From: a virus
Reading direction: 5' to 3' (one strand)
IMG/VR virus record: IMGVR_UViG_3300027969_000086
Location: 1-64,000 of that record
DNA: 64,000 nucleotides
Part shown: positions 5,576 to 64,000 of the stretch, piece after piece
How the letters are laid out: every line of letters begins with the position of its first letter
Numbering within the stretch: position 1 is the stretch's first letter
Position numbers and translations under genes: made by a program
Notes under the pieces: generated by a model
What the model saw: only the letters and a program-made list of their open reading frames with translations
Database searches by the model: none
Told to the model about the DNA's origin: nothing

Positions 5576-5579
5576 CAAC

Positions 5580-5912
5580 ATGCCAACAGTTTTTAAACAT
5601 GCAGTTAATACCGGAATAGGAACAGATCCAGTGGATGTGTTACAAATTCCTGCAGGTGTTAGAGCAACAGTGATAGGATGCAACATTGCAAATGTTACTG
5701 AGTACGATACAGTATCAGTGAATGTGTTTGTTGTTGACGAAAATTCAACACAGGCTCACTATGTTAAGGGATTACCTATCCCACCAAACACCAGTGTTAA
5801 AGTTATTACCAACGGTGAAAAGTTAATTTTACCAGAAACATCTGGTATTCGCATTGTTAGCGATACAGAAGACAGCATCGATACAACAATAAGTTATGTA
5901 GAGATATCGTAA
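5580..5912 (+). CDS. Small beta-sandwich-like protein, paralogue of 2326 and 19733 genes
   Basis: 110 aa, four bases after the fibre at 4523-5575. Beta strands alternate with turns (VDVLQIPAGVRATVIGCNIANV, then VFVVDENSTQAHYVKG, then PPNTSVKVITNGEKLILPE). The layout matches two other small genes that each follow a fibre gene. It may cap or decorate the fibre encoded just upstream; this is inference from order only. There is no signal peptide, membrane segment or catalytic motif. Confidence 0.7.
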   Translation: MPTVFKHAVNTGIGTDPVDVLQIPAGVRATVIGCNIANVTEYDTVSVNVFVVDENSTQAHYVKGLPIPPNTSVKVITNGEKLILPETSGIRIVSDTEDSIDTTISYVEIS

Positions 5913-26212: not shown

Positions 26213-27892
26213 ATGCGAAAAATATTCAGCGTACCACTTAATCCCAAACTAAATCCAGAGCAGTACTCAGAGTTCCTTAGTTTTCTTTCACAATACAAAG
26301 ATTATATTAGAGATGTGTATTTTACATCTCGCATCAAACCTTTTGTGCAAGATGCTATGGGAGATGTATTTCTACTAGAGGAGTATCACTTCAGTGCTAT
26401 TGAAGCAGCATTGAATATACAAAAAACCCTAGGAATTTCAGTAAGCGCAACATTTAATAATATCGAAATCCCTGCCACACAACAAAATTTAGATTTGTTT
26501 ATTAAAAATTTTAAACCATTGTATGATGCAGGGATCCGTAGTGCTACAATTCCGCACACACATTGGATGGCAACTGGCCAGATCAAAGCTGCCTTTCCTG
26601 AGTTGTATGTAAAAAATACCATACTTCGTGAAGTACACACTGCACAGGAAGTAGTTAATCTTGCTAATTACGGGTTTGATTATATTAATCTTGATAGAGA
26701 CATGATGCGAGATCATGTCCTCCTTCGAACAATTAAAAAAGCAAAAGCATACATCAAAGAAACCACAGGCAGAGATATTGCAATTAGCCTATTAGGTAAC
26801 GAAGGATGTGTAGGTGGTTGCAGCATGATGGTTGAGCATTTTCAATTCAATAACAATCGATCCGGGGATACGCCGCAATACTTCAACGATGCTATTAGCA
26901 GAACCAGTTGTAAAAAATGGGAAGTTGAAGACCCTGCAATATTTTTAAAAACTGCAAACTTTCCGCCATGGAGAGCAGACTGGGATCAATTTATCGACGA
27001 GCTAGGCATTGATAGTATCAAAATGCATGGCCGTGAAGCAATCACTCGTCTGTATGAAACTATGGACATTATTAAAAACTATGCAGAAGGCAAAGACATA
27101 TTGTTTCAAGGATTCGAAAATTATCTAGAAGAAACAAACCTAACAGAAAAGCCAATAAACATTTGGCGTGAAAAAATTAAAACTTGTCAGTTCGAATGTT
27201 GGTCATGCCAATACTGCGATAAAATTTACGATAAAAAATCCAAGTTGGTATATTCTGAATTAGTTCAACATACAGCACAATGTATTTCAGATTCCGGAAT
27301 ACCAACAATGCGATTAGATATCCCCGGTCTTACCAGTCCTAGAGTACAGACGCTGTTAAATTCTCTAGCTAAGGGTGTAAACACCTATTTAGAAGTGGGC
27401 GCCGCAATGGGTGCAACCTTTTGTGCCGCTATTAAAGGCAATCCAATACATGCAATTGCTGTTGACAATTGGAAAGAACAAATTCAACCTGCAAGAAATG
27501 ATTTAAATCAGCTTCCTAGGAACAATGTTCAAACATTTATTGAAAATGTTAAGAAGCATAAAGGACTAGCTGAAGTAGATATTTTAAACGGCGACTTATT
27601 TAAAGCAGATGTTTCTCAATTCTCATCCAACATTGAGATGTTTTTTTATGACGGCCCTCATGATTTTGAAAGTACAAAGCGAGCGGTTGAGCATTACTAT
27701 CCAATTCTAGCCAATGAGTGTATTATTGTATTTGATGATGCAAATTGGCAATCAGTTGTTGAAGGTGCGCAGGCCGGCATTAACAGTGTAGGCGCTCGAG
27801 TTACTTTTGAAAAGATGATGTTGAACTCCCTAGAAAGCCCAAACGAATGGTGGAATGGGCTATACATTGTTGTAATTAGAAAAAATGATTAA
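26213..27892 (+). CDS. U32-peptidase-like domain fused to a SAM methyltransferase
   Basis: 559 aa. Residues about 40-300 resemble U32-family TIM-barrel proteins: a long run of strand-helix units, then LDRDMMRD (160-167) and LLGNEGCVGGC with C199 and C203 before H209. In that family cysteines near this place bind an Fe-S cluster; C233 and the group C325, C329, C332, C335 are further candidates. Residues about 360-555 are a class I SAM methyltransferase: YLEVGAAMG (392-400) is motif I, FFYDGPHDFESTKRAVEHYY fits the Methyltransf_24 type, and IIVFDDANW follows. No substrate is known. It is first in a promoter-headed cluster and overlaps the halogenase gene by eight bases, so the two probably act together. 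Confidence 0.6.
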   Translation: MRKIFSVPLNPKLNPEQYSEFLSFLSQYKDYIRDVYFTSRIKPFVQDAMGDVFLLEEYHFSAIEAALNIQKTLGISVSATFNNIEIPATQQNLDLFIKNFKPLYDAGIRSATIPHTHWMATGQIKAAFPELYVKNTILREVHTAQEVVNLANYGFDYINLDRDMMRDHVLLRTIKKAKAYIKETTGRDIAISLLGNEGCVGGCSMMVEHFQFNNNRSGDTPQYFNDAISRTSCKKWEVEDPAIFLKTANFPPWRADWDQFIDELGIDSIKMHGREAITRLYETMDIIKNYAEGKDILFQGFENYLEETNLTEKPINIWREKIKTCQFECWSCQYCDKIYDKKSKLVYSELVQHTAQCISDSGIPTMRLDIPGLTSPRVQTLLNSLAKGVNTYLEVGAAMGATFCAAIKGNPIHAIAVDNWKEQIQPARNDLNQLPRNNVQTFIENVKKHKGLAEVDILNGDLFKADVSQFSSNIEMFFYDGPHDFESTKRAVEHYYPILANECIIVFDDANWQSVVEGAQAGINSVGARVTFEKMMLNSLESPNEWWNGLYIVVIRKND

Positions 27893-29399
27893 TAGAACAC
27901 AAAAAATAATTATATTTGGCGGTGGTACAAGTGGTTGGCTGTCAGCAGCATACCTTACACACAATTTACAAGTGCCCTGTGAAATCACTTTAATTGAAGA
28001 TACTACATTAGGCCCTATCGGAGTCGGCGAAGGAACACAACCACTGACAGCTCAGTTCTTGTTTCAATGTGGACTTAATCCGGCCCAATGGATGAAACCC
28101 AGTAATGCAGCATTTAAATTAGGTGTAGAACTCAGCGGATGGAACGACGAGCCTTATTTTGTAGACAATGACGGATTACAAAGTTCGTTCATAGCTGAAG
28201 ATTTATATACCAGCGACTATTTCATTAAAAAACCCTATAGCGAATTTGCAAAGTTTCATCCCGCCTATCAACTAGCTAAGGCTAACCTAAGTCCAAAAAT
28301 GTTTGATCATTTAGACACTAGCTTTGGCGCAAACAACGAAGGCTACGGTGCCGTACATTTTTCTGCATACGAAATTTTAGATGCTCTTAAAGAACTGATA
28401 GGCAATAAGGTCAAACATATTGATACTAGAATTGCCAAGGTTGAAAAAGACATACACGGCATCACTAAACTAATTGACGACAACGGACAGAGTTATTCTG
28501 CAGATCTTTATATTGACTGTAGTGGATTCAATTCTATACTATTGGAAAAAACACTAGGAGTTGCATTTACATCTTACGATAAATGGTTGCCTAATGATCG
28601 TGCTGTAGTAATGCCTACGCAATTTAAAGACCCGGAAACTGAATGCTTCCCATATACAAAAGCAACTACAATGACTGCCGGATGGAGATTTACTATCCCT
28701 ATCTATACAAGAACAGGCAACGGCTATGTTTACAGCAGTAAATTTATCAGCGACGAAGACGCTGAAAAAGAACTAAGAGAAACAATTGGAGAATTTGAGG
28801 CCCCGGCAAAATTCTTAAAAATGAAGTGCGGGTATCATAAAGAAATTGCAGTTAAGAATGTGGTAGCAGTAGGACTCAGTGCAGGATTTGTAGAGCCATT
28901 AGAAGCAACAGGTATCACCTTTACTACCGCAGTGATTAAATCAGTAACCGATTTGCTGAATATGAATAGAAATATATGGAATCAACCAATCAAAGATTTA
29001 ATTAATCGAGGCTTCTATGAAATGAACATGGAAATTCTAGCATTTGTTTGGGCGCACTATCATTTCTCAAAGAGGTCAGATACACCATTCTGGCAAAGCA
29101 TTAGACAACAAGATATCAAAGATCTGCCTGAAGATGTACAATTCATACTAGGTCATTTCTATCCTCGTCCGGGAAGATTCCTATACTTTAGTAAAAGCTC
29201 TATGTTTAATATTGTTCAGTGGTTCAGTGTGTTACATGCCGGCGGGGCCTACGACAATCTAGAAAAAATTGACAGACCAAACGAAAACGAATATGCAGAA
29301 TATTTTATTGATGTTCAAAACTATAGAGTAGAGCAAGCAAAAAAACGATTTCCGAATCATTACGCTTACTTAGATCAATGGTATAAAAATAATTCTTAA
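27885..29399 (+). CDS. FAD-dependent halogenase (tryptophan-halogenase family)
   Basis: 504 aa. The FAD-binding GGGTSGW is at 12-18. K78 in NAAFKLGVELSGW sits where PrnA has its catalytic lysine (K79). GWRFTIP (266-272) takes the place of the family WxWxIP motif, here W.F.IP. GFVEPLEATGI (334-344) keeps the glutamate (E340) and the Thr-Gly pair that in PrnA contact the halide site. DCSGFNS (211-217) is a further family segment. Relatives are known in cyanophages (VirX1 of phage Syn10). The enzyme would need a reduced-FAD supply from the host. The substrate is unknown; the upstream fusion enzyme and downstream genes are candidates for the same pathway. Length is normal for the family. Confidence 0.88.
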   Translation: MINRTQKIIIFGGGTSGWLSAAYLTHNLQVPCEITLIEDTTLGPIGVGEGTQPLTAQFLFQCGLNPAQWMKPSNAAFKLGVELSGWNDEPYFVDNDGLQSSFIAEDLYTSDYFIKKPYSEFAKFHPAYQLAKANLSPKMFDHLDTSFGANNEGYGAVHFSAYEILDALKELIGNKVKHIDTRIAKVEKDIHGITKLIDDNGQSYSADLYIDCSGFNSILLEKTLGVAFTSYDKWLPNDRAVVMPTQFKDPETECFPYTKATTMTAGWRFTIPIYTRTGNGYVYSSKFISDEDAEKELRETIGEFEAPAKFLKMKCGYHKEIAVKNVVAVGLSAGFVEPLEATGITFTTAVIKSVTDLLNMNRNIWNQPIKDLINRGFYEMNMEILAFVWAHYHFSKRSDTPFWQSIRQQDIKDLPEDVQFILGHFYPRPGRFLYFSKSSMFNIVQWFSVLHAGGAYDNLEKIDRPNENEYAEYFIDVQNYRVEQAKKRFPNHYAYLDQWYKNNS

Positions 29400-30892: not shown

Positions 30893-32368
30893 ATGCCATC
30901 CAATAGAAATCCAGTTGTAAATTTAGTAAGATTTACACCGAATGATGAAGACTTCCTTAATAGAAAGCTAGGTTCGCGAGGGGAAGTTTTCTATGATCAA
31001 GATAACGATACCCTTAGAATTTATAACGGTGCTGATACTGCTGGTATTAAGTTAGCCCGAAACGACCTCATTGGGGTGTCAGCAGCATCTATGCGGGATG
31101 CTTTGATTATCAGCAGATCCGCCACAGTCTACTATACTACAACTATTGTAGGTCCACAGAGTCCTGATACAGGAAACAAATATGCATTAAATGGCGAGTA
31201 CAGACCCAAGCCAAATTTTGTAACCGGCTATACCTATATATTTGATCAAAGCGATGACACCAATGTCTACTGGCCTAATGCCAACGGCACTACACAAAAT
31301 AGACACCCATTGAATTTTTCATCAGATAATCTAAGCGGTGTTCGAGGTGGCGGTACCGCCTATACTTCAAATGTAGTATATAAATTAGATGGCGAAATTG
31401 TAACATACGCAACTTATAACAGTGTGGCATTTGATAATGCCGACACTCGTACGGTACAGATTACAGTAACTAACGCTACCCCAACAACACTATATTATTG
31501 GTGTTATAATCACCTTGCTATGGGAGAAGAAATTGCCGTAGCAGATCCAGGCAGTGGTGCAGGTGGTGCAACAGTTTCAGTTGGCAATACACTACCAGAA
31601 GATCCAATAAGTGGAAATTTATGGCTTAATACTGACAATGGTAGATTATATGTTTACATAGATGACGGTACATCTACACAGTGGATGCAGCCAAGTGTGC
31701 CTATGCCTAGCTTAGGCAGTATATCATTTACTGGCACAGTTATAGATTCAGTTGACTCTAGTTCGATATCATTTACACCTGCGGTGACTTTCAATTCAGA
31801 TATACGCATTGAAAATGATTTAATTATTGCAGGCAATATTGTATACGGAAACGAAAAATTAGCCACAGAGTCATATGTTAGCACAGCACTTGAACAAGTG
31901 GTTGTTGAAGCACTTTCAATAAATGCTTCAACTGTTGGATTAGGCAATGTAACTAACGAATCAAAAGCTACAATGTTCACTAGTCCAACATTTACCGGAA
32001 CTTCTACATTCCAACAATCTGTCGAAGTATTGAATACTAAAACAGGGGCAACAGGAACTGTTGATCACGATTATTCTACAGGAGCCATTTGGTATCATAC
32101 TAGTTTAGCTGATAATTTCACAGCTAATTTTACCAATGTGCCTACCACTGCTAGTCGAGCTATCTCAATTGTTCTTGTATTAATACAAGGAGCTACCCCG
32201 TATGTTCCAAATGTATTACAGATAGACGGTACACCTGTAACTATTAATTGGCTAGCTGGATTAACACCATCCGGAAACGCCAGCAAAAAAGACATTGTTA
32301 GTTTTACATTTACTAGAATAGCATCGAGTTGGACAGTTTTTGGCAGTTTAAGCTCATTCGGAACATAA
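30893..32368 (+). CDS. Fibre-like virion protein with cupredoxin-like domain
   Basis: 491 aa. Residues 1-55 are an attachment module (FTPNDEDFLNRKLGSRGEVF, YDQDNDTLRIYNGADTAG). Residues about 75-215 resemble a cupredoxin: YTYIFDQSDDTNVYW, NRHPLNFS with H138, and LYYWCYNHLAMGEE with C204, H207 and M210, spaced as type-1 copper ligands (C-x2-H-x2-M). Residues 225-275 (LPEDPISGNLWLNTDNGRLY) are a further fibre module, and the C-terminal half is beta-rich shaft and knob. Such modules are recurrent in marine T4-like phage structural proteins. Whether metal is bound is not known. Confidence 0.75.
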   Translation: MPSNRNPVVNLVRFTPNDEDFLNRKLGSRGEVFYDQDNDTLRIYNGADTAGIKLARNDLIGVSAASMRDALIISRSATVYYTTTIVGPQSPDTGNKYALNGEYRPKPNFVTGYTYIFDQSDDTNVYWPNANGTTQNRHPLNFSSDNLSGVRGGGTAYTSNVVYKLDGEIVTYATYNSVAFDNADTRTVQITVTNATPTTLYYWCYNHLAMGEEIAVADPGSGAGGATVSVGNTLPEDPISGNLWLNTDNGRLYVYIDDGTSTQWMQPSVPMPSLGSISFTGTVIDSVDSSSISFTPAVTFNSDIRIENDLIIAGNIVYGNEKLATESYVSTALEQVVVEALSINASTVGLGNVTNESKATMFTSPTFTGTSTFQQSVEVLNTKTGATGTVDHDYSTGAIWYHTSLADNFTANFTNVPTTASRAISIVLVLIQGATPYVPNVLQIDGTPVTINWLAGLTPSGNASKKDIVSFTFTRIASSWTVFGSLSSFGT

Positions 32369-32369
32369 T

Positions 32370-33437
32370 ATGCCACGATTAACTAGTGTTCAGAGTAGAC
32401 AACTTAGCGGGCTAGCAACCAGTAGACCGTGGCTAATAACTTCTAGTGCAAATCCGGTTGCGGAAGGAAACACCTTTACATTAACAGCCTCTAATCCTCC
32501 AGGCTACGTCAGTGTATCACCATATACCCTTTCTGGTAATGCAGCAGCTGGTGAATCTCTAGAGTATCTACCAGTTCCGGGAACTTCTACATTGAGTTAT
32601 GTCCTAGGCAGCGTTGTTGATAAAATAGAATTAAAAACACTGAACGATCATCAAAATGCAACATCCAAGTCAGTGACTATGACAATTCAAGACGGAACAA
32701 TAACCGTTCCTATTACCGAAGCTGGGACACAATTAGGCGTACCAACTTATTCTACAGGAACTAATATTACATCGGGTAGTCTAGGCGGCATCAATAATGC
32801 AACCATAACAACAACAGGATGGCGCAAATATCTTTCAGCTAATCAGAGTACCGGTAGACTAACATTAACATTACCTAGTACTTTATCAATTCCTTGCACG
32901 ATTGAATTCTATGGAAGATTAAACGGTATTAATACAGGATCATCTGATCTAGCAACATATCTAAGCGTATCTAATTCAGCAACAGATCAGTTTGTTGGCC
33001 TGATGTATAAGCCACAGGTATTTCCGTATACGCACCAGGGTGGTATTAATGTACGACCCGACGGCGGATTCGATGTAACCGCAGCTACAGATATTTGGAC
33101 TTGGCATGTAATAACCATTGATGCAAGCTGGGTTCCTCGTTATTATCATTTGCAACTATACACCGAAAACGGTACAAGAAAGTGGGGTTATAGAAATGCA
33201 ACAGGTCTTGATCAAGCAATCAACGTTACCTCAAGAACCTCCTGGAATCGACTTAACTTTATTGCACCACCTGCAACCTATTCTAATACATTCTACGACG
33301 GATTAACCTATGTTGACTATCACACTGTTCGAATTAGCAATATCAATAGATACGGAACTTCTACAATGATTACCCCACCAGATCCGTATACATTAGAAAC
33401 AGATGGAAATACTGTGGCGATTTATAGATTTGCATAA
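32370..33437 (+). CDS. Virion protein with lectin-like C-terminal domain
   Basis: 355 aa, one base after the previous stop. Residues about 20-120 look like an Ig/calx-beta-like module (NPVAEGNTFTLTASNPPGYV, then SKSVTMTIQDGTITVPITEA). From about 150 a jelly-roll pattern appears: RLTLTLPSTLSIPCTIEFYG, IWTWHVITIDASWVPRYYHL, ENGTRKWGYRNATG, and a final YVDYHTVRISNINRYGTS, similar to LamG/ConA-like folds. It may bind glycans at the phage surface. There is no signal or catalytic motif. Confidence 0.7.
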   Translation: MPRLTSVQSRQLSGLATSRPWLITSSANPVAEGNTFTLTASNPPGYVSVSPYTLSGNAAAGESLEYLPVPGTSTLSYVLGSVVDKIELKTLNDHQNATSKSVTMTIQDGTITVPITEAGTQLGVPTYSTGTNITSGSLGGINNATITTTGWRKYLSANQSTGRLTLTLPSTLSIPCTIEFYGRLNGINTGSSDLATYLSVSNSATDQFVGLMYKPQVFPYTHQGGINVRPDGGFDVTAATDIWTWHVITIDASWVPRYYHLQLYTENGTRKWGYRNATGLDQAINVTSRTSWNRLNFIAPPATYSNTFYDGLTYVDYHTVRISNINRYGTSTMITPPDPYTLETDGNTVAIYRFA

Positions 33438-40233: not shown

Positions 40234-40265
40234 TTATGAGAGAACTAAACTCAGGAGATAACGAT

Positions 40266-43200
40266 ATGGCACTAGTTTCCCCAGGCGTACAAGTTACGAT
40301 AATTGATGAGAGCTTTTATACACCAGCTGAACCTGGTACCACTCCTCTTATTGTTGTAGCTACAGCACAGGATAAAAGCAATGGAGCAGGCACAGGCACT
40401 GCTACTGCGACAACAAAAGCAAATGCTGGAAAAGCATTTAGATTAACAAGTCAGAAAGATGTTGGCGACTTGTTTGGTGTTCCTTTCTTTGAAAAGACCC
40501 CTAGCAACACACCGATTCACGGTAGTGAGCGTAATGAATATGGACTATTAGCAGCTTACAGCTACCTAGGTGTTTCAGCAAGTGCATTTATTGTACGTGC
40601 CGATGTTAACCTAAGCGAGCTAGAAGGCACAGCAACAGAGCCAGGTGCAGAGCCAGATGATGGTGCATGGTGGGTTGATACTCGCGGCACAACATACGGT
40701 ATCTTTGAGTGGAATGGTGCAGCCGGTGACACCACAGGCGGCCAATCATTCACAATGAAAGAGCCAATCGTTCTAACAGACGATGATGCAACAACAAAAA
40801 TTACCAGCAATGCACCAAGAGGATCAGTTGGATCTATTGGCGATTATGCTGTGGTATTTGAAACTGGTACAGTACAAAAAGAACTAGCAAGAATTTACTT
40901 CAAAAGCCCAGGTGGCGGCTACAACCAAAGCGGTAGTCTAGTAACAGCAGGTTCATGGGTTAAGGTTGGTAGCGGTGGTTGGGCAGCTAGCTGGCCAACA
41001 GTTACTTCTAAAACTATTGGAACACCTTCATGGTCAATAAGTGACACCTTTACATTAAACGGTACATTAATTACAGTTAGCGGTGTAACACTAGCAGCTC
41101 TAGTCAGCGACATTAATACAGCAATGGGCGGCAGCTCTGGTGTTTATGCTAAAGCAGTAAACAACAAACTGTATCTATACAGCAACGGTGCAACTGAAGG
41201 CAATGCAGACTCAACAAGTTCTGGTAGCATTGTTCTAACAGCCGGCACAGGTGATGTTATTGCCGCAACTACAACATTGAGTGATGTTGGTATTAAGGCA
41301 GGTGAATATTTCCCCCCAACATTGTCTATCGCTCCGCATACAAGTGTTCCAGAATACAAGTCTGGTGATACTGAGCCAAAGCCAACTGGAAGTGTGTGGT
41401 TGAAAACCACAGAGCCAGGCGAAGGCGCCCGTTGGAGAGTCAAACGTTGGAATTCTGCTACACAAGCATGGGTAGCCTACGATGCTCCAATCTATGACAC
41501 CAGCGCAAGTGCATTGTATTACCTAGACCGTAGTGGCGGTGGTACAAGTATTCCTTCTGACAGCATTTATGTGTTAGCCAATGCTGAAGAACAATTCAGC
41601 TATGCTGACGGCACTGACGAAGCTCCAGATGCTCGCGATACAACTTTTAAAGAGTTAAGTTTCCGTGTTTGGAGACGAGCAACTACAGGTGCAACCGTTG
41701 TTGAATCTGCAGTTATCACAACAGGTACACTTACAGGTGGCGCCAATACATTCACAATTAAACAGAGTATCAAAGGCAGTTTAGCACTATCAGCTGCTAG
41801 CACAGTTAGTTTTACAGCAGTAGGTACAAGTGCTGATGCTGAAACACTAGCGGCAGCTATCAATGCTATCACAATGTTTGGTGCTGACGGTAGTCAAGTT
41901 ACTAACCATATCGAAGCAGCAGTTACAGCAGACGGTACAGTTACACTAAGCCACAAAGTTGGTGGTGAAATTCGTTTAACAAATGGTACACTTAACCCTG
42001 TTTCTGCATTGTTTACAGCTTATAATGTAATTACAGAAGCTGGTACAGCTAATTTCTATACTGCTCCTACAGAAGCTCCAGAAGATTACATTGTTACTAA
42101 CTGGCGTCCACTGGCTGACGAAGCCACAAATGGCTTTGCAGCAAGTCCAGATGCTCCATTGAACGAGCCAACAGATGGTCAACTATGGTACAACAACAGC
42201 TTTGCTGAAGTTGATATTATGGTTCACAACGGTCGTACTTGGGTTGGTTACAAGCATTCTACAAGCCCATACTATAACGTTACAGCATCACTAAAAACAA
42301 GCCCAGGTGGTCCTATTGTAGGCGCAACTGCTCCAGCAGCAGCCAACGGTCAAAGCGACGGTACAGCACTAGTTAACGGCGATCTATGGATCAGCACAGC
42401 TGACATGGAAAACTTCCCAACAATTTACAAGTGGGATGGCTTAAACCTAGAGTGGGCATTGGTTGACAAAACTGATCAAATCACCGATCAAGGCGTGCTA
42501 TTTGCCGATGCTCGTTGGGCAACCAGTGGTGCATCAAGCACACCAAGCACAATTGCTGATCTATTAGAAAATAATTTCTTAGACACAGATGCTCCAGATC
42601 CTGCACTATATCCAAAGGGTATGTTGCTATGGAACCTACGCCGAAGTGGTGGTAACGTTAAGAAATATCAAAACAGCTACATTGATCTAGCCGCAGACAA
42701 CGCAAGAACTGGCGCCGCTACTCTAGCTGGTAACGCATTTGTTTCCGGTGAAAGTATGAGCGGTTACTGGTCAGATCGTTGGACTACAGAAAGTGGCAAC
42801 AACGAAGACGGTTCAGGCGCATTTGGTCGTCTTGCACAACGTAAGGTTGTTGTACAGGCAATGAAGTCAGTTATTGATACCAGCATTGAAATCCGCGACG
42901 AAGAGCGCAGAAACTTCAACTTGATCGCTGCCCCTGGATATCCAGAAACGCTACAGAACTTGATCAGCTTGAACATTGATCGTGGTCAAACAGCGTTTGT
43001 TATCGGTGATACACCATTGCGTCTACCAAGCGATGCTACATCATTGTTGAACTGGGGTACTAATGCTGCTCTAGTAACAGACAACGGTGACGACGGCATT
43101 GTCAGCTATGACGAATATTGTGCAGTTTACTATCCAAATGGATTTACCACAGACTTAGGCGGCGCTAACGCAGTTGTTCCAGCTTCACACATGATGATGA

Positions 43201-43760
43201 AAACATTTGCACTAAGCGACCAAGTTAGCTATCCATGGTTTGCACCAGCTGGTACAAGACGCGGTGGTATTTCTAACGCAACCAGTGTTGGATACATTGA
43301 TGCACTAAGTGGAGAATTCCAAACTGTTGCATTGAACGAAGGTACAAGAGATGTGCTTTATGATCTAAAAGTTAACCCAATTCCATTCTTTGTTGGAGTA
43401 GGTCTAGTTGCTTATGGTCAAAAGACTCGTGCTAGAAATGCCAGCGCATTAGATAGAATCAACGTAGCTCGTCTAGTTGTTTATCTAAGAAGCCAGCTAT
43501 CAAAACTAGCTCGCCCATATGTGTTTGAACCAAACGATTCTATCACCCGTGATGAAATCAAAGGCGCAGTAGAGAGCTTGTTATTAGAATTAGTTGGTCT
43601 AAGAGCTCTATATGACTTTGCAGTAGTTTGTGATGAGTCAAACAACACACCAAGTAGAGTTGATCGTAATGAGTTGTATGTTGATATTGCTATTGAGCCA
43701 GTTAAGGCAGTAGAATTCATCTACATTCCAGTGCGCATCAAGAATACTGGTGAAATTTAA
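40266..43760 (+). CDS. 18: Tail sheath protein gp18
   Basis: 1164 aa from the ATG at 40266; an in-frame ATG at 40236 lies in the predicted leader, and the AGGAGA site and the typical start MALVSPGVQVTIIDES favour 40266. The C-terminal third (VYYPNGFTTDLGGANAVVPA, ISNATSVGYIDALSGEFQTV, then RNASALDRINVARLVVYLRS) matches the conserved T4 sheath core that makes the contractile sheath. T4 gp18 is 659 aa; here about 500 extra residues sit in the N-terminal and middle part and include four W-rich modules (GAWWVDTRGTTYGIFEWNG, GSVWLKTTEPGEGARWRVKR, GQLWYNN, GDLWISTADMENFPTIYKWD). These probably decorate the outer surface of the sheath. Confidence 0.88.
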   Translation: MALVSPGVQVTIIDESFYTPAEPGTTPLIVVATAQDKSNGAGTGTATATTKANAGKAFRLTSQKDVGDLFGVPFFEKTPSNTPIHGSERNEYGLLAAYSYLGVSASAFIVRADVNLSELEGTATEPGAEPDDGAWWVDTRGTTYGIFEWNGAAGDTTGGQSFTMKEPIVLTDDDATTKITSNAPRGSVGSIGDYAVVFETGTVQKELARIYFKSPGGGYNQSGSLVTAGSWVKVGSGGWAASWPTVTSKTIGTPSWSISDTFTLNGTLITVSGVTLAALVSDINTAMGGSSGVYAKAVNNKLYLYSNGATEGNADSTSSGSIVLTAGTGDVIAATTTLSDVGIKAGEYFPPTLSIAPHTSVPEYKSGDTEPKPTGSVWLKTTEPGEGARWRVKRWNSATQAWVAYDAPIYDTSASALYYLDRSGGGTSIPSDSIYVLANAEEQFSYADGTDEAPDARDTTFKELSFRVWRRATTGATVVESAVITTGTLTGGANTFTIKQSIKGSLALSAASTVSFTAVGTSADAETLAAAINAITMFGADGSQVTNHIEAAVTADGTVTLSHKVGGEIRLTNGTLNPVSALFTAYNVITEAGTANFYTAPTEAPEDYIVTNWRPLADEATNGFAASPDAPLNEPTDGQLWYNNSFAEVDIMVHNGRTWVGYKHSTSPYYNVTASLKTSPGGPIVGATAPAAANGQSDGTALVNGDLWISTADMENFPTIYKWDGLNLEWALVDKTDQITDQGVLFADARWATSGASSTPSTIADLLENNFLDTDAPDPALYPKGMLLWNLRRSGGNVKKYQNSYIDLAADNARTGAATLAGNAFVSGESMSGYWSDRWTTESGNNEDGSGAFGRLAQRKVVVQAMKSVIDTSIEIRDEERRNFNLIAAPGYPETLQNLISLNIDRGQTAFVIGDTPLRLPSDATSLLNWGTNAALVTDNGDDGIVSYDEYCAVYYPNGFTTDLGGANAVVPASHMMMKTFALSDQVSYPWFAPAGTRRGGISNATSVGYIDALSGEFQTVALNEGTRDVLYDLKVNPIPFFVGVGLVAYGQKTRARNASALDRINVARLVVYLRSQLSKLARPYVFEPNDSITRDEIKGAVESLLLELVGLRALYDFAVVCDESNNTPSRVDRNELYVDIAIEPVKAVEFIYIPVRIKNTGEI

Positions 43761-54090: not shown

Positions 54091-54336
54091 ATGAAATCAG
54101 CAATCGCAATCCTCGCTACCGTGTTCGCAGTATCAGCATTTGCACAAGCACCTGCTAAGAAAGAAGAAGCCAAGCCAGCAACACCGGTTGCAACAGCACC
54201 AGCTGCAACAGCAAGTGCTCCAGCACCAGCTAAGGCAGAAGTTAAGAAAGACGAGAAAAAGCCTGCAAAAAGTGAGCCTGCTAAGAAAGAGCCAGCTAAA
54301 GCAGACGCAAAGCCCGCCGCTACGCCAGCAAAGTAA
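54091..54336 (+). CDS. Exported Ala/Pro/Lys-rich protein with signal peptide
   Basis: 81 aa. Residues 1-18 (MKSAIAILATVFAVSAFA, cut likely after A18) are a clear Sec signal peptide. The mature part is Ala, Pro, Lys and Glu-rich repeats (APAKAEVKKDEKKPAKSEPA), low complexity and unstructured. A AAAGGA ribosome site precedes it. Proteins of this kind are common in the periplasm of proteobacteria and are unusual in a phage core block; a host-derived gene is likely. The ORF ends in a TAA that overlaps another reading frame of the next open stretch. Confidence 0.75.
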   Translation: MKSAIAILATVFAVSAFAQAPAKKEEAKPATPVATAPAATASAPAPAKAEVKKDEKKPAKSEPAKKEPAKADAKPAATPAK

Positions 54337-57222: not shown

Positions 57223-57678
57223 ATGAATTGGTATGATCGGGTTAGTAAAGATATTTCAAACATACCTGATGCTGTGGCATATTATGAAGCTGAATTAATA
57301 GCAGCAAAACAAGATGTTCGCGTATCAGGAAGCATTGAGAAAGCCTCTGCAGCAATGCCTGGCATAGTTGAAAACCGATTTAACCAACTTCAAGAAATTG
57401 AAGGTATTTTAGAATACCTTAATATTGAACTTCGTAGACTTCGTAGTCAGCATTTTCGAAAGTATCTTGAAAACTATCAAAGGTCCTTGTCTTCTAGAGA
57501 CTGTGAAAAGTTTGTAGAAGGCGAGGCCGATGTAGTTGACTTTGAAAAAATTATCAACGACTTTGCCTTACTTCGTAATAAATGGCTTGGTATTATCAAA
57601 GCATTAGATATCAAACAATGGCAGTTAAGCAATATTGTTAAACTTCGAACTGCCGGATTAGAAGACGCCACTCTTTAA
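57223..57678 (+). CDS. Possible UvsY-like recombination mediator
   Basis: 151 aa, helical throughout. The C-terminal stretch CEKFVEGEADVVDFEKIIND...LGIIKALDIKQWQLSNIVKL with RTAG is similar in spacing to the end of T4 UvsY (a K..L....DV..., then LD.I..R.F.I..I...R.F.AG), and the place just after uvsX fits. UvsY loads UvsX on gp32-covered ssDNA. The N-terminal half has no clear match. This is a pattern-level suggestion only. The 3' end overlaps the convergent methyltransferase by 21 bases. Confidence 0.45.
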   Translation: MNWYDRVSKDISNIPDAVAYYEAELIAAKQDVRVSGSIEKASAAMPGIVENRFNQLQEIEGILEYLNIELRRLRSQHFRKYLENYQRSLSSRDCEKFVEGEADVVDFEKIINDFALLRNKWLGIIKALDIKQWQLSNIVKLRTAGLEDATL

Positions 57679-58212
57679 TCTTTCGGCAAACTTAATTACA
57701 TCAAACGGTTCTTGTGGACCTATCCATAATATTTTGAGTTTATCGTCTTGAAGTTTTTCTTCCCACCACTCTTCACTTTTGATACACACAAAGGGTTTTT
57801 TGCTTTTTCTAGCTTGTAAATCACTGTGCAATCCTACTACACAAAGAGTATTGGTCATTGACAGCATTAAATTTTTTACAACATCAATATCTTCTTCAGG
57901 AATAAACGGAAGCACGTCAAGGCATACCGTTAAATCCCATTTTCCGACCGGTAGTTCTTTATATTTTTCATAGGCCGGATCATATAAATTGTAAGAGTTA
58001 ATCCCTATCAATTGGGCAAAATCTAACTCATCTCCAGAATACTGTGTTCCTTTTCCGCAACCATAGTCTAACATAGTTTTGCAATTATATTGTTTAATTA
58101 TTTCTTGTAGTTGTTTAATATACTGGTAACTACCGCCCCCGTCCCAGGTTACACTCTTATTATGAAATTCTATACTTTTAGATAGTGTTTGTTTGTATTT
58201 GTTTGAAAACAT
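57658..58212 (-). CDS. Class I SAM methyltransferase
   Basis: 184 aa on the minus strand. MLDYGCGKGTQY (about 47-58) is the SAM-binding motif I, with LTVCLDVLPFIPEEDIDVVK as the later acidic and post-I motif. An AAAGGAT ribosome site and a minus-strand TAAATA (58229-58234) lie upstream. The substrate is not known. It shares the regulatory gap with the glycan island on the plus strand. The overlap with the UvsY-like gene has no terminator. Confidence 0.8.
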   Translation of the reverse strand: MFSNKYKQTLSKSIEFHNKSVTWDGGGSYQYIKQLQEIIKQYNCKTMLDYGCGKGTQYSGDELDFAQLIGINSYNLYDPAYEKYKELPVGKWDLTVCLDVLPFIPEEDIDVVKNLMLSMTNTLCVVGLHSDLQARKSKKPFVCIKSEEWWEEKLQDDKLKILWIGPQEPFDVIKFAERLKSGVF

Positions 58213-58262: not shown

Positions 58263-59033
58263 ATGAAAAAGATTGTTTTAATCACTGGGGGCTTTGACCC
58301 TCTACATTCTGGGCACATTGCCTATATCAACGCAGCTAGAGAACTTGGCGATTCCTTAATCGTCGGGGTCAATTCTGATCAATGGTTACGCCGAAAGAAA
58401 GGGCAAGAATTTATGCCCTGGGAAGAACGAGCAACTATCATTGCAGCACTACATAATGTCGACAGAGTTATCAACTTTGATGACAGCGATAACAGCGCCA
58501 AAGATGCTATTAGAAAAGTTAGAGCAATATATCCAACTGCTCAAATAATCTTTGCCAACGGCGGCGACCGAACCAAAGAAAATATTCCGGAAATGGATCT
58601 ACTTGAAGAAATGCTTCACTTAGATTTTGTATTTGCTGTAGGCGGCGAAGACAAAAAGAATTCCAGCAGCTGGATTCTCCAAGAATGGAAAGCACCTAAG
58701 ACTAGTCGAGCTTGGGGATATTATCGAGTGTTGCACGAAGTTGACAATCATGTCAAACTCAAAGAACTCACGGTTATTCCCAAGACTTGTCTTAGTATGC
58801 AACGTCATCAAGACCGTGCAGAACATTGGTTTGTAGCTGAAGGCACAGCCACGGTCTATAGCATAGATCACAGTTCAGACATGGATCTATTAGGTGAATA
58901 TACACAACATCAACACATACATATCAATAGAACTCAATGGCATAAGTTATGTAATGAAACTGATCAACCCTTGCGAGTTATTGAAATACAGTACGGTGAA
59001 AATTGTGTCGAAGAGGATATAGAAAGAAAATGA
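58263..59033 (+). CDS. Nucleotidyltransferase fused to a sugar-isomerase-type cupin
   Basis: 256 aa. The N-terminal domain has the cytidylyltransferase-like start ITGGFDPLHSGHIAYINAAR with HSGH at 15-18, then a VNSDQWLRRKKG segment, as in glycerol-3-phosphate cytidylyl- or heptose-phosphate adenylyltransferases. From about 150 a cupin domain follows: MQRHQDRAEHWFVAEGTATV with H182, E187 and H188 as metal ligand candidates, as in type II phosphomannose isomerase/GDP-mannose pyrophosphorylase C-termini. It may activate a sugar or polyol phosphate for the transferases downstream. It starts the glycan island and overlaps the next gene by four bases. Confidence 0.82.
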   Translation: MKKIVLITGGFDPLHSGHIAYINAARELGDSLIVGVNSDQWLRRKKGQEFMPWEERATIIAALHNVDRVINFDDSDNSAKDAIRKVRAIYPTAQIIFANGGDRTKENIPEMDLLEEMLHLDFVFAVGGEDKKNSSSWILQEWKAPKTSRAWGYYRVLHEVDNHVKLKELTVIPKTCLSMQRHQDRAEHWFVAEGTATVYSIDHSSDMDLLGEYTQHQHIHINRTQWHKLCNETDQPLRVIEIQYGENCVEEDIERK

Positions 59034-59707
59034 TTAACATTTTTATTGGTTATGACCATCGTGAGGCCATTGCATATCATGTATGTGCAAATAGCATCAT
59101 TAGACATTCGAGTAAACCAGTCTCACTAACACCACTTGCGTTACAAAACATGCAGGACTATCAAGAAACACATACTGACGGAAGTAATCAATTTATCTAC
59201 AGTAGATTTCTTGTGCCGCATCTGATGGAATATAAGGGATGGGCAATCTTCATGGATGGCGATATGTTGCTACGAGACGACATTGAAAAATTATGGGAAT
59301 TGCGGGACGACACCAAAGCAGTAATGGTGGTCAAGCATGATTACAAAACAAAAATGGCAGAAAAGTATCTAGGTGCTAAAAACGAAAACTATCCTCGTAA
59401 GAATTGGTCAAGTGTTATTTTATGGAATTGCGGACACGCTTCGAATAAAGTAGTAACTCCTGAGTTTATCGAAACTGCTACAGGTGCGCAACTTCATAGG
59501 TTTACTTGGCTTGCCGATGACCTAGTTGGAGAGTTGCCTAAGGTGTGGAACTGGTTGCCCGATGAGTTTGGTGCTAATCAAGATGCAAAATTATTGCACT
59601 ACACCCTAGGAACTCCAAGTTTTCATGACTTTGCTACAACTCCTATGGGAGACGAATGGCATCGTGAACGCATTTATACTGATTACTGCCTACAAAGAAA
59701 TCTATGA
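59030..59707 (+). CDS. Glycosyltransferase, GT8-like
   Basis: 225 aa from the ATG at 59030 (ATGA overlap); an earlier in-frame start lies in the upstream gene. IFIGYDHREAIAYHVCANSI and FIYSRFLVPHLMEYKGWAIF, followed by MDGDMLLRDDIEKLWEL with the DxD metal site (D76-G77-D78), match glycosyltransferase family 8-like proteins. A CGHASNKVVTPEFIET and a WLPDEFGANQDAKLLHYTLG segment complete the pattern. It would transfer a sugar from a nucleotide donor. The acceptor, phage virion protein or host glycan, is unknown. Confidence 0.8.
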   Translation: MINIFIGYDHREAIAYHVCANSIIRHSSKPVSLTPLALQNMQDYQETHTDGSNQFIYSRFLVPHLMEYKGWAIFMDGDMLLRDDIEKLWELRDDTKAVMVVKHDYKTKMAEKYLGAKNENYPRKNWSSVILWNCGHASNKVVTPEFIETATGAQLHRFTWLADDLVGELPKVWNWLPDEFGANQDAKLLHYTLGTPSFHDFATTPMGDEWHRERIYTDYCLQRNL

Positions 59708-60501
59708 TCTTTTTAAGCAAAGAAGGCGAAGACGAATACATTAACATGTTTGCCTCTGGGTGTAAACAGAGTTCTATATCAACTGACAATTTCGCCTACG
59801 ATATATCTACAGAACCAATAGTACTGCGAGGTATATTAAAACATAAAATAATGAAACGCTGCTGGAAAGACGGTCGAACATTTTATTATATGGATACCGG
59901 GTATTTTGGTAATGAAAGGACAGCTTCAAATCCCAATGGATGGAAGTACTGGCATCGCATAGTAAAAAACGATCTTCAGCACGGTGAAATTATTACTAGA
60001 CCCGACGATCGTTTTAAAAAATTTAACAAAACTTTTACACCTTGGAAAAAAGACGGTAGAAAGATATTAGTTGCAGCCCCGGATGATAAACCTTGTAAAT
60101 TCTACGGAGTTACAAGAGAGCAATGGGTCGCTGACACCGTTGCAACAATTAAACAACATACAGATAGACCAGTAGTCGTAAGAGAACGAGCACCTAAAAG
60201 GATCGACAGAATTGCTACAGATACTTTACAACAGGCATTAGACAACGATGTATTTGCTCTAGTAACATATAATAGTGTTGCCGCAATTGAAAGTGTTTTT
60301 TACGGTATACCAGCGTTTACTATGGCTCCCGCAAATGCTGCAAGTCCAGTAGCATTACAAGATCTTAGTAAAATAGAAACACCGTACTATGCAGATAAAG
60401 ATAAGTTATATGCCTGGGGTTGTCATTTAGCCTATGGGCAATTTCACATAACTGAGTTAAAAAGCGGTGAAGCAAAAAGGATGCTAGAAGAACTATGGTA
60501 A
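59704..60501 (+). CDS. Glycan-island paralogue 1, transferase-like
   Basis: 265 aa, four-base overlap upstream. N-terminal part FYYMDTGYFGN...YWHRIVKNDLQHG, C-terminal part IKQHTDRPVVVRERAPKRID, YNSVAAIESVFYGIPAFTMA, then PVALQDLSKIETPYY and a HLAYGQFHITELKSGEA tail. The NS.A..E....GIP motif followed by a conserved P is like that of the KpsC/GT-B type capsule glycosyltransferases. Three similar genes follow in tandem. Function as a transferase is inferred. Confidence 0.65.
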   Translation: MIFLSKEGEDEYINMFASGCKQSSISTDNFAYDISTEPIVLRGILKHKIMKRCWKDGRTFYYMDTGYFGNERTASNPNGWKYWHRIVKNDLQHGEIITRPDDRFKKFNKTFTPWKKDGRKILVAAPDDKPCKFYGVTREQWVADTVATIKQHTDRPVVVRERAPKRIDRIATDTLQQALDNDVFALVTYNSVAAIESVFYGIPAFTMAPANAASPVALQDLSKIETPYYADKDKLYAWGCHLAYGQFHITELKSGEAKRMLEELW

Positions 60502-61286
60502 TGAAAATAGAAGATGTTACTTGCATTGAACAGCTGATTGTTTACGGTTCCGGCGGCCAATGTACAGATGACTACAATGATAAAACAAAACCTTTTGTAG
60601 CAAGAGGTGTAGTAAAACGAAAAGAAATACATCAGTGTATTAAAGAGGGTAGGAGTTTCTATTATACCGATACTGGATATTTTGGAAACTTTAAAAGCGA
60701 AGGTAATTCTAGTGGCAAGAAAAAATGGGTACGGATTGTCAAAGACGAACTACAGAAATCCACACTAGAAACATGGCCTTCGGACCGATGGGATTTTCTT
60801 GTAAAGCTAGATAAGCGCCTGGAATGGAAAGGATGGAAAACCAAAGGAAACAAAATTTTATTGGTAACTCCAAATCCTAAATCTTGTCACTACTTTGGAT
60901 TTGAATTAGATGATTGGAAAAACAACACAATCGCTGAAATTAAAAAACATACAGACATGCCAATTATTATTAGAGATAAAGCATCTCGAAGTGAACGACA
61001 TGCTAACTCGATATATGAAGCACTAGATCAAGGAATTTTTGCCACAGTAACCTTTAATAGTATTGCTGCTATTGAATCAATTGCCTATGGAATCCCTGCG
61101 TTCGTTGCAGTTCCTTGTGCAGCAAGCCCATTAGCACTAACTGATCTTTCAAAGATTGCAACACCGTATTATCCAGACGAATCTCTAGTTAAAAAACAAT
61201 GTTCCAATTTAGCTTACGGACAGTTCCGCGGCGAGGAAATTGAAAACGGTACTGCTTGGAAAATTTTACAAAGAACCGCCAAATGA
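60495..61286 (+). CDS. Glycan-island paralogue 2, transferase-like
   Basis: 263 aa; a second ATG at 60501 is an equally good start. Same layout as paralogue 1: SFYYTDTGYFGN, WVRIVKDELQKS, then IKKHTDMPIIIRDKASRSER, FNSIAAIESIAYGIPAFVAV, AASPLALTDLSKIATPYYPD, and LAYGQFRGEEIENGTAW. It is the closest relative of paralogue 1, keeping the NS.AAIES..YGIPAF core exactly. Overlaps the next gene by four bases. Confidence 0.65.
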   Translation: MVMKIEDVTCIEQLIVYGSGGQCTDDYNDKTKPFVARGVVKRKEIHQCIKEGRSFYYTDTGYFGNFKSEGNSSGKKKWVRIVKDELQKSTLETWPSDRWDFLVKLDKRLEWKGWKTKGNKILLVTPNPKSCHYFGFELDDWKNNTIAEIKKHTDMPIIIRDKASRSERHANSIYEALDQGIFATVTFNSIAAIESIAYGIPAFVAVPCAASPLALTDLSKIATPYYPDESLVKKQCSNLAYGQFRGEEIENGTAWKILQRTAK

Positions 61287-62386
61287 AATTACTAATTAAC
61301 GATAAAGAGATTGCATATTTTTTATTGAGCCTTATTGATCATACCGAATCATTAAAGGATATCAAGCTGCCAGAAAACGAAACTGCACTGGCAATAAACT
61401 ATGTGTTAGAGTTAACCCATCGTCCATTAAAAGGTAAAAAATTTAATCTGTCAAAACATAAACAAAAAATAAAAGACAGAATTAAACGAGCAGTGTATCG
61501 AGATTTAAAACATTATCGCGATGCTATCGTAGAACAACTGCATAGATCTCGTCTTGAACATTTTACAAAAGTTCACGAAAACATTGAATATTTTATCAAG
61601 AAATTAGGCGAAGACAAAGTTCTAAACTTATATCAAAAAAGCAAAAAACAAAATTTTGTTAAAAGTACTGGATTTTTCTTAGATCAAAATGCAGAGCTAA
61701 TCAGGCGTAACAGATTTAATTCATACGAAGAAGATTGTCTAATTAGAAATACAGTAGGCAACGAAAATCTATTGATAACAAAAATTAAAAAACAATATCC
61801 TTTTTGGTTTATCGATAGCGGCTACACTAATTTTTTAGAAGAAAATAAAATATGGCATAGGATTGTTCGTAGCCATTTACATCATGGAAACTCTTTTGAC
61901 GCTCCAGTTGATAGATTAGGAATATTTAAATCGTTTCCTCAACAATGGCGACAAGGCGGAGAAAAGATAATGGTTATCGAACCAGGACGATTTGCCGCAG
62001 GTATTTTTGGCGTCGATCTTAAGACATGGAAATACGACATAGAAAAAGAAATTAGACAGTATTCAGATAGGCCGATTGTGTTCAGAGAAAAAGCACCAAA
62101 GAAAGTAAGAGATCCGTTGTATAAACATTTATGCAATGAAGATTATTATTGTTTAATTAATATTAATTCTAATGCTGCTACCGAAGCAGTTTGGGCCGGC
62201 ATTCCAGTAATTACCTTAGACCAACATGTTACTAACCCAGTTACTAGCAATAGTATTTCTAATATTAACGATCTGTATAGACCTAATCTAGCTCAATGGT
62301 TGTGTATGCTAAGTTATAGTCAATTTACCTATGAAGAATTAATAGATGGATCTTTTTTAAAAATTGTAAAAAGGTATCATGTCTAA
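61283..62386 (+). CDS. Glycan-island paralogue 3, with extra N-terminal helical domain
   Basis: 367 aa from the ATG at 61283 (ATGA overlap). About 140 N-terminal residues are Lys/Glu-rich and helical (LSKHKQKIKDRIKRAVYRDL) and have no counterpart in the other copies. The C-terminal 230 residues repeat the family: FWFIDSGYTNFLEENKIWHR, IRQYSDRPIVFREKAPKKVR, NSNAATEAVWAGIPVITLDQ, and LSYSQFTYEELIDGSFLK. The GIP core is kept but the AAIE part is diverged. Confidence 0.62.
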   Translation: MKLLINDKEIAYFLLSLIDHTESLKDIKLPENETALAINYVLELTHRPLKGKKFNLSKHKQKIKDRIKRAVYRDLKHYRDAIVEQLHRSRLEHFTKVHENIEYFIKKLGEDKVLNLYQKSKKQNFVKSTGFFLDQNAELIRRNRFNSYEEDCLIRNTVGNENLLITKIKKQYPFWFIDSGYTNFLEENKIWHRIVRSHLHHGNSFDAPVDRLGIFKSFPQQWRQGGEKIMVIEPGRFAAGIFGVDLKTWKYDIEKEIRQYSDRPIVFREKAPKKVRDPLYKHLCNEDYYCLININSNAATEAVWAGIPVITLDQHVTNPVTSNSISNINDLYRPNLAQWLCMLSYSQFTYEELIDGSFLKIVKRYHV

Positions 62387-63302
62387 AATTGCTGTAGCTT
62401 ATTATGGGGGAATTCCTCCTAATAATAATAACATAGAAAAACCTATGATTCTTGATTATTTTTGTCAAGGAGTTACTGCTGCTGGAGATACTGCGATTGC
62501 TCACCGAGGAATGAATGCAATAAGATGTGATGTTGCTCTTATTCAGGGATTTGTACACGAACACGGTAAATCAGCACCACATTTGCAATTGAGACAAAAT
62601 GCTGTAGACACTCAAAAACGAAACGGCAATCGTAGTTTAATCGTTGATAGTAATTTATTTTTATATGCAGATCTTGGAAATAGTAAACGATACCTTCGTT
62701 ATAGTTTTGACGGAGTTTTTCCAACTACTGGATTTTATTTTGACAAAGAGGTTGACTCTGGTCGCTGGGCCAAAATCAGTCAAAACTTAAATATCAATCT
62801 TAAACCATATCGTAGTGTAGGAAACCATATTTTAATTTGTTGCCAGCGTAACGGCGGATGGAGTATGCGGGGACTTCATGTACAACAATGGCTCGACGAC
62901 ACAATTTTAAAAATTAAAAAGTTTAGTGATAGACCTATTGTTGTTAGAGCGCACCCCGGAGATAAAAAAAGTAGATTGTATTTAAAAATTAATCATAGAA
63001 ATGTAACATTGAGTCCTCCAACAAAGCCATTAACTGATGATTTGAAAAATGCATGGGCAACTGTAGTGTATAATAGTAGTCCTAGTGTTGCTAGTTTAAT
63101 AGAAGGAATTCCGGCATTCCTTACAGACCCTATCCCCGAATACAGCCAAAGTTCTGTAGCATCTAATACAGAACTAAGTATGATAGAGCACCCTACTTTG
63201 TATGAAAGACAAGAATGGATTGAACGATTGTCAATGTGTCATTGGAACTTTGACGAGCTTAGATCAGGTGAAGCATGGCAATTTTTTAAAAGGTATTTAT
63301 GA
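62379..63302 (+). CDS. Glycan-island paralogue 4, transferase-like
   Basis: 307 aa, eight-base overlap upstream. Distinct N-terminus (IAVAYYGGIPPNNNNIEKPM, then LIQGFVHEHGKSAPHLQLRQ). The C-terminal part again has IKKFSDRPIVVRAHPGDKKS, VVYNSSPSVASLIEGIPAFL and LSMCHWNFDELRSGEAWQFF. The RAHPGDKKS segment and YNSSPSVASLIEGIP resemble the phosphate- and nucleotide-binding side of capsule transferases. Most diverged of the four. Confidence 0.62.
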   Translation: MSKIAVAYYGGIPPNNNNIEKPMILDYFCQGVTAAGDTAIAHRGMNAIRCDVALIQGFVHEHGKSAPHLQLRQNAVDTQKRNGNRSLIVDSNLFLYADLGNSKRYLRYSFDGVFPTTGFYFDKEVDSGRWAKISQNLNINLKPYRSVGNHILICCQRNGGWSMRGLHVQQWLDDTILKIKKFSDRPIVVRAHPGDKKSRLYLKINHRNVTLSPPTKPLTDDLKNAWATVVYNSSPSVASLIEGIPAFLTDPIPEYSQSSVASNTELSMIEHPTLYERQEWIERLSMCHWNFDELRSGEAWQFFKRYL

Positions 63303-64000
63303 GACAATTACACAATGGATGGCATGTGCCAGATGACGACAAGAAAATAAGTTTTGTTCTTGAGGGGGATGCCAACATGGAAAATCCTGCATACGAAGGA
63401 AAGTATCGTAATTTAATACTAGAACTTATACCTAACAAGCGAACATTTGTTGATGTGGGGACCAATGTAGGAATTTGGAGTAGGCCCATGATGACGCGGT
63501 TTAATACTACAGTTTCCTACGAACCAAGTCGTCAAAATTTAGAATGTTTAAAGGCAAATATTCCAAGCGGTATCGATCTTCGTGAAAAAGCTGTGGCAAA
63601 CTTTCAAGGCACCGCAGCCTTTCATCAAGCTGGAAAAAATTGTGGTGACGGAAAATTATGTAGGCCAGGGATTGGCGCATCGTATGATGTGCCTGTAGTT
63701 AAATTAGACGACGAAGAGTTAACTAATGTTGATTTAATTAAAATCGATGTACAAGGATGGGAATACGAAGTATTACAGGGAGCAGTTGGTATTATTAAAG
63801 AACAACGACCGTGGGTAATATTTGAAGTTAATCAAGACATCGACGAATGTTGTAAGTTAATGGAAGAACTAGGATACGAAACAATCAGTTGCAAGAGCAA
63901 ACGAGTGTTTATATGGGCTCCGCTCACCGGATATAATACGCCTACAGATTCTACAAGGTTTGGTCGATATCTAGGACCGGGTCCTTATAAAGAAAGATTT
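63299..64000 (+). CDS. FkbM-family methyltransferase, 3' end outside window
   Basis: Open from the ATG at 63299 (ATGA overlap with paralogue 4) to the window end, 234 codons with no stop. FVDVGTNVGIWSRPMM is SAM motif I, SYEPSRQNLECLKANI binds the adenosine, and DLIKIDVQGWEYEVLQGA is the FkbM family signature. These enzymes O-methylate sugars. Its place suggests methylation of the glycan built by the island. A second FkbM-like gene is at 46382-46957. Confidence 0.85.
   Translation, partial: MRQLHNGWHVPDDDKKISFVLEGDANMENPAYEGKYRNLILELIPNKRTFVDVGTNVGIWSRPMMTRFNTTVSYEPSRQNLECLKANIPSGIDLREKAVANFQGTAAFHQAGKNCGDGKLCRPGIGASYDVPVVKLDDEELTNVDLIKIDVQGWEYEVLQGAVGIIKEQRPWVIFEVNQDIDECCKLMEELGYETISCKSKRVFIWAPLTGYNTPTDSTRFGRYLGPGPYKERF

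Follow-up and report, generated by a model that had tools for sequence, protein, structure and literature searches.

Diverged KpsC-like paralogues in a conserved phage gene island predicted to build a glycan

The window analyzed here, a stretch of 64,000 nucleotides that makes up positions 1–64,000 of the 68,591-base virus record IMGVR_UViG_3300027969_000086 (IMG/VR), carries near its right end four consecutive open reading frames (ORFs), A to D, whose products belong to one protein family (Table 1). The first-pass annotation of this DNA had described them as four tandem paralogues within a glycan island. Their positions and kinship were confirmed, as a search of the record with the product of B recovered A (E 5e-66), C (2e-21), and D (2e-11), and by sequence comparison the four are diverged paralogues whose homology is beyond chance. 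The same search also matched a further copy, here called E, near position 65.6 kb of the record (9e-5); the count of four thus holds for the window, while the genome has five. The shared motifs quoted in that annotation were also present, with small variations. The SDRPIV.R region reads TDRPVVVR in A, TDMPIIIR in B, SDRPIVFR in C, and SDRPIVVR in D; the NSxxA.E...GIP motif (quoted as NS.A..E...GIP) has the form NSSPSVASLIEGIP in D, and the L.Y.QF...E...G tail motif is likewise found in the paralogues.

Neighboring genes share a few bases at their ends, an arrangement like that of an operon with translational coupling. ATGA overlaps occur at three junctions (GT8/A, B/C, and D/methyltransferase), the A/B junction is TAATG (or an overlap of 7 nt), and C and D overlap by 8 nt. 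The start of C is probably the ATG at 61283, which forms the overlap with the stop codon of B, rather than the TTG at 61256. Compared with a close relative (L009), the ratio of nonsynonymous to synonymous substitution rates (dN/dS) of A to E was 0.02–0.13, and therefore all five are real genes under purifying selection. In the family tree, clades were recovered for A (support 0.99, 34 of 47 members), B (0.996, 23 of 31), C (1.0, 20 of 20), and E (0.986, 12 of 14); because the largest pure D clade has a support of 0.0, no claim made here rests on the monophyly of D.

Table 1. Genes and sites of the island. Positions are those of the window unless the record is named; pLDDT, predicted local distance difference test score.
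Feature	Position	Strand	Basis or remark
A, KpsC-like GT-B paralogue 1	59704..60501	+	ORF, homology, motif counts
B, KpsC-like GT-B paralogue 2	60495..61286	+	ORF, homology, motif counts
C, KpsC-like GT-B paralogue 3	61283..62386	+	AlphaFold2 model, pLDDT 93.5; fold matches KpsC/KrkA; readable from TTG 61256
Helical insertion of C	61301..61681	+	After beta-strand 1, N-terminal domain; model residues 16–142
D, KpsC-like GT-B paralogue 4	62379..63302	+	AlphaFold2 model, pLDDT 95.7; top fold match KpsC
D Asp90	62646..62648	+	Column of KpsC general base Glu66, via hhalign of canonical relatives with KpsC
D Gln156	62844..62846	+	Q of QxxxD; nucleophile position (residue 160) is Gly
D Arg190-Ala-His-Pro193	62946..62957	+	(K/R)xHP CMP-binding motif; aligns to WbbB RAHP
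E, fifth paralogue	65256–66110 of record, just past window end
NT, HIGH-type nucleotidyltransferase (HldE/TagD-like, HSGH motif) fused to mannose-6-P-isomerase-type cupin	58263..59033	+	Pfam PF01467, PF01050
G8, GT8-like GT-A glycosyltransferase, FMDGD (DxD) motif	59030..59707	+	Pfam PF01501, E 5e-8; phrog_28018
FkbM-type methyltransferase	63299..64000, on to 64009 in record	+	Pfam PF05050, E 6e-16
Methyltransferase at island edge	57658..58212	-	phrog_24759, E 3e-16; varies between loci
GM, putative GT-A enzyme	64006–64818 of record, past window	-	Own sequence and DAD motif; no Pfam/NCBIfam match

The fold of the family was assessed on AlphaFold2 models of C and D, for which the input sequences were those of the window and of the fetched loci only. 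For D, the best solved relatives were KpsC (Foldseek E 1.4e-8), WbbB, and KrkA, with VIA-align Z scores of 14.2 (KpsC, over 244 residues) to 11.9, while other GT-B enzymes reached at most 11.0. The model of C matched the same three at lower scores (KpsC Z 10.0, KrkA E 4e-5). KpsC is a bacterial capsule enzyme and, like WbbB and KrkA, a retaining transferase of beta-linked 3-deoxy-D-manno-oct-2-ulosonic acid (Kdo) (PMC12887879, PMC10148158). The fold search, set beforehand as the refuting test of the proposed glycosyltransferase relation, thus placed these enzymes on top for both proteins and, judged from the models, C and D are GT-B enzymes with the modified GT-B fold of this group. A comparison with CDP-glycerol transferases had also been suggested together with that to KpsC; KpsC is indeed the nearest solved relative of D, while TagF (3l7l) aligned only in the C-terminal domain that the proteins have in common (122 residues, Z 9.6), and no Pfam match was found. 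The assignment as CDP-glycerol transferases was not adopted. The 140-residue helical addition reported for one paralogue corresponds to extra helices in the model of C, although not to an N-terminal tag: because beta-strand 1 (residues 11–14, numbered from the TTG start) precedes the helices (about residues 16–142), these form an insertion into the N-terminal, acceptor-side domain.

Single-sequence scans of Pfam, PHROGs, and NCBIfam leave the family unnamed, with weak matches only. DUF6716 (“putative glycosyltransferase”; E 0.009 for A, best 2e-4 in relatives) was not adopted, and a chorismate mutase match (E 0.005) was regarded as chance. The Pfam family Capsule_synth (PF05159) gave no match to A to D at E values up to 10, and matched one of 52 A2 members at E 0.068. 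A phmmer search of A against the PDB sequences returned nothing, and a D/E profile returned WbbB alone (E 0.01–0.04). A profile of ten relatives that have the QxxxD motif (eight from phage loci, that of L111, and the Endozoicomonas copy in L107) aligned with the KpsC modules by hhalign over 188–194 columns, with a probability of 86.5 and an E value of 4.6e-6 in a one-model search; control families (GM, UvsX, and methyltransferases) gave at most 0.5%. This profile matched D at 100%, and A, B, C, and E matched D at 98.9%–99.9%. Since only the QxxxD relatives match KpsC directly, the sequence link between the genes of the window and KpsC is transitive, and it agrees with the fold.

Two motifs have been defined for the Kdo transferases: QXXXD, which contains the nucleophilic Asp, and (K/R)XHP, involved in CMP binding (PMC12887879, PMC10148158). 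Among the 243 distinct family members over which motifs were counted, the column of the putative general base (KpsC Glu66) is Asp or Glu in 242, and the acid is present in all five copies of this genome; by type, it is found in 81/82 A, 48/48 B, and 36/36 C sequences. The donor-side Arg is similarly conserved (A 82/82, B 43/48, C 36/36), and the Ser of the NS motif is kept in these three types as well. By motif alignment, the QxxxD nucleophile is absent from all of A to E in this genome. D-type proteins retain the Gln (59/59) and RxHP (58/59), with Gly (49), Asp (9), or Trp (1) at the nucleophile position, and E-type proteins retain the Gln and RPHP (18/18 each), with Ser in that position in all 18. 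In types A, B, and C, Pro or Ser replaces the Gln, and Lys or Arg replaces the His (R-x-R/K). The copies of this genome accordingly read QRNGG and RAHP in D, QHSRS and RPHP in E, and P instead of Q in A to C. QxxxD is present in relatives of loci L012, L018, L024, L025, L049, L105, L107, and L111. Nine D-like phage sequences retain it, one of them reading QLPGDASL...RNHP where the KpsC modules read QVRGDASL...KLHP, and so, at the sequence level, the whole QxxxD/RxHP signature is kept in some phage relatives.

The genes around the paralogues are those claimed in the first-pass annotation, that is, a nucleotidyltransferase–cupin (NT), a GT8-like enzyme (G8), and a methyltransferase. The best NCBIfam match of NT is rfaE domain II (heptose-1-P adenylyltransferase), below the cut-off. 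Beyond the FkbM-type gene, the record continues with GM, an ORF of 135 amino acids (aa), E, an ORF of 396 aa, and a gene for a UvsW-like helicase. A scan of IMG/VR with an alignment of four sequences yielded at least 529 confirmed relatives. The conservation of the island was evaluated in 42 fetched loci, some of them near-duplicates, that span UvsY to the GM gene; because these loci were fetched via the KpsC-like family, the counts show co-occurrence among carriers, not prevalence. G8, A, D, and GM were each present in all 42 and NT in 41, and B and C were always paired, both being present in 29 and both absent in 13. Across many uncultured aquatic phages the genes stay together, and the order UvsX-UvsY-NT-G8-A-B-C-D-(methyltransferase)-GM-ORF-E-...-UvsW is nearly fixed. 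In five loci G8 is fused to a paralogue, and in one NT is fused to G8; the fusions tie NT, G8, and the paralogues to one pathway, and together with the strict co-occurrence they favor a single pathway. Islands without B and C often have in their stead a longer G8 or a G8–paralogue fusion, a pattern that the exchange of individual pathway steps would produce. In several such loci (L040, positions 6782–8224, L095, L101, and others), G8 has about 250 extra C-terminal aa with no Pfam match. Variant islands add genes for a UDP-sugar dehydratase, a UDP-sugar dehydrogenase, a DegT aminotransferase, a CAP59-type mannosyltransferase, or more methyltransferases.

Among 50,697 phage records, B and D each found 16 matches, in Caulobacter giant phages, Pelagibacter phage Mosig, and one spring podovirus, and G8 found 18, mostly in the same phages. 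In the Caulobacter phages the cluster is directly downstream of the tail genes; in the spring podovirus a paralogue is two genes from the terminase; and in another podovirus G8 and an FkbM gene are downstream of the major capsid gene. A plasmid of Bradyrhizobium elkanii (NZ_CP126028.1, 67 kb; L131) looks like a phage-plasmid, because portal, tail, and tape-measure genes are aboard. Two of its genes are sialyltransferase-like, and its glycan cluster adjoins the gene for a collagen-like tail fibre, in the order portal, collagen-like tail fibre, sialyltransferase-like gene, G8, GT9, two methyltransferases, a glycosyltransferase, a paralogue, and the head–tail adaptor. In podovirus MW202713.1 (L132, positions 4876–5607), an unannotated KpsC-like gene lies between a methyltransferase gene and one for a pyridoxal-phosphate enzyme. 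Two matches filed under a Neomarinimicrobiota metagenome-assembled genome (L111, 335 kb; L112, 153 kb) were rejected as cellular genes: since they carry UvsX, UvsY, and UvsW along with the island, they look like large-phage contigs binned with the bacterium.

Taken together, we consider it probable (roughly 0.6) that A to E form a divergent branch, rich in phage members, of the KpsC/WbbB/KrkA group and that, with NT, G8, GM, and the FkbM-type enzyme, they build one short oligosaccharide, the most likely carrier being a virion protein, for example a tail fibre. A virion protein is favored as the acceptor because in other phages the family sits among tail-fibre, portal, and terminase genes. NT would make an activated, nucleoside diphosphate sugar, perhaps heptose-like in view of its best NCBIfam match, and G8, GM, and the KpsC-like enzymes would then add sugars in turn, one enzyme per linkage, after which the FkbM-type methyltransferase may cap the chain. 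Each paralogue would combine a common nucleotide-sugar-binding C-terminal domain with an acceptor-binding N-terminal domain of its own; since the acceptor choice of KpsC resides in the N-terminal domain (PMC10148158), the divergent N-terminal domains suggest a different acceptor for each. A search of the phage records for NeuB genes found none, and neither did one for CMP-sugar synthetase genes, so D and E would draw CMP-activated sugars from the host, whereas A to C would depend on other donors. The overlap of a cellular relative with a CMP-sugar-synthetase-type gene also counts in favor of the reading as a whole. For enzymes that have kept the base but lost the nucleophile, a direct single displacement, possibly inverting, would be the simplest mechanism, and the stereochemical outcome would change.

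Several points weigh against this reading. The glycosyltransferase activity of A to E is a prediction from sequence and models, and hhalign gave no match to KpsC with the profile of any one paralogue taken alone. The nucleophile by which the Kdo transferases are defined is missing from all five, and because of this neither mechanism nor donor can be transferred from those enzymes. The lack of a CMP-sugar synthetase in the phages also counts here, as does the setting of the island in the lineage of the window, which adjoins the recombination genes UvsX, UvsY, and UvsW and not tail genes. The acceptor protein on the virion is one that we infer. Of the earlier proposal of one multi-step glycan on the virion or the host, the single pathway is thus supported by co-occurrence and fusions, whereas the single glycan and its virion site are deductions.

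It is less likely that the pathway alters the host envelope, lipopolysaccharide or capsule, during infection, for instance to exclude competing phages, an idea put forward for cyanophage polysaccharide clusters. Envelope polysaccharides are what KpsC and related enzymes act on, this interpretation has been given to comparable phage clusters (PMC7824862), and relatives in Prochlorococcus and an alphaproteobacterium adjoin polysaccharide-type genes, one of them overlapping a CMP-sugar-synthetase-type gene, which keeps a host-surface target under consideration. However, the island showed neither a flippase nor a polymerase or membrane anchor, relatives carry the cluster in a strictly conserved rather than a variable form, and other phage lineages bear it within virion-assembly modules. 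That A, B, and C are non-catalytic and assist D, E, G8, or GM as scaffolds or as subunits that set specificity seems improbable; their loss of the Q and HP motifs and the fixed pairing of B with C would fit such a role, but they keep the general-base acid, the donor-side Arg, and the Ser of NS, with Lys or Arg for the His, and their dN/dS is only 0.02–0.04.

Most improbable is that the enzymes glycosylate phage DNA, like the alpha- and beta-glucosyltransferases of T4 or a multi-step DNA hypermodification, and the assignment as DNA glucosyltransferases was considered and not adopted. The island adjoins uvsX, near which the T4 beta-glucosyltransferase gene is also found, and DNA glycosyltransferases of metagenome-derived viruses are known. 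A gene of the thymidylate synthase (hydroxymethylase) family was nevertheless found in none of 15 family-carrying phage records (other than that of the window; they included the complete Mosig and CcrColossus genomes and some fragments), although the same search found T4 gp42, and this argues against DNA glycosylation. A search for TET/JBP genes, run without a positive control, was empty too, and the fold matches are enzymes acting on saccharides.

The paralogues resemble KpsC (GT107) and the N-terminal modules of WbbB (GT99) and KrkA (GT140) in their whole-chain fold, in the acid at the general-base position, in the RxHP motif of D and E, in the QxxxD of some phage and cellular relatives, and in a C-terminal extension ending in a conserved W...E...G. 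They differ in that A to E have no QxxxD nucleophile, A to C lack both Q and HP, and Capsule_synth does not match; they are also single-module proteins of 260–380 aa, phage-borne in groups of two to seven. Because the nucleophile is missing, they were not placed in any retaining Kdo transferase family. Polysaccharide clusters that combine HIGH nucleotidyltransferases and cupins with several paralogous glycosyltransferases are already on record for phages and cyanophages (Iyer et al. 2021, PMC7824862), and the island shares with them this content and the methyltransferases in one cluster; those clusters were described as sporadic and polymorphic, whereas the island is near-fixed between UvsY and UvsW and built on KpsC-like paralogues. 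In CcrColossus (gp126–131), CcrBL9 (gp174–178), and Mosig, paralogues also lie beside G8 and a methyltransferase or sulfotransferase gene, with two copies in Mosig and CcrColossus against five here, and with the Caulobacter clusters placed between tail and lysis genes. Four core groups of putative glycosyltransferases were reported in 2025 in large aquatic phages, the moraphages (PMC12619734), which also have UvsW; compared by description only, their orthogroups may include genes of the A to E type. Kinship with KpsC, a catalytic motif lost by degrees, and a strict arrangement in several copies appear to be new.

Other features of the window are also of note. A gene for a tryptophan-halogenase-like protein (27885–29399; phrog_2928, E 8e-100) is in the tail-fibre region and may encode a virion- or metabolite-modifying enzyme. 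Proteins of the same region (30893–33437) have 22%–25% Ser plus Thr and could be glycan acceptors; collagen-like repeats were not found in the window's own proteins. The tail sheath protein (40236–43760; phrog_10581) is unusually long, with 1174 aa, about 500 of which precede the part belonging to the common sheath family phrog_23. An ORF of 81 aa (54091–54336), flanked by virion genes on one side and the gene for the single-strand binding protein on the other, has a signal-peptide-like start and an Ala/Pro/Lys/Thr-rich tail, and its product is predicted to be an exported low-complexity protein.

In its widest form, the proposal is of an unrecognized, abundant phage family with the KpsC fold, in which the nucleophile was lost, the general base kept, and a retaining mechanism turned into a single displacement, with five co-conserved paralogues sharing the labor on one virion glycan; we put this forward tentatively, as a possibility with the odds somewhat against it. 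The covalent double-displacement mechanism of the KpsC type has been called unique among the glycosyltransferases known so far (PMC12887879), and since the family includes natural members that have the nucleophile and others that lack it, the origin or loss of that mechanism becomes testable. The copies in the cultured Caulobacter phages and Mosig are annotated as hypothetical proteins only, and the analysis gives a probable function to these genes and to those on hundreds of contigs of uncultured phages (at least 529 IMG/VR matches), with the prediction that phages with the island would bear a specific glycan.

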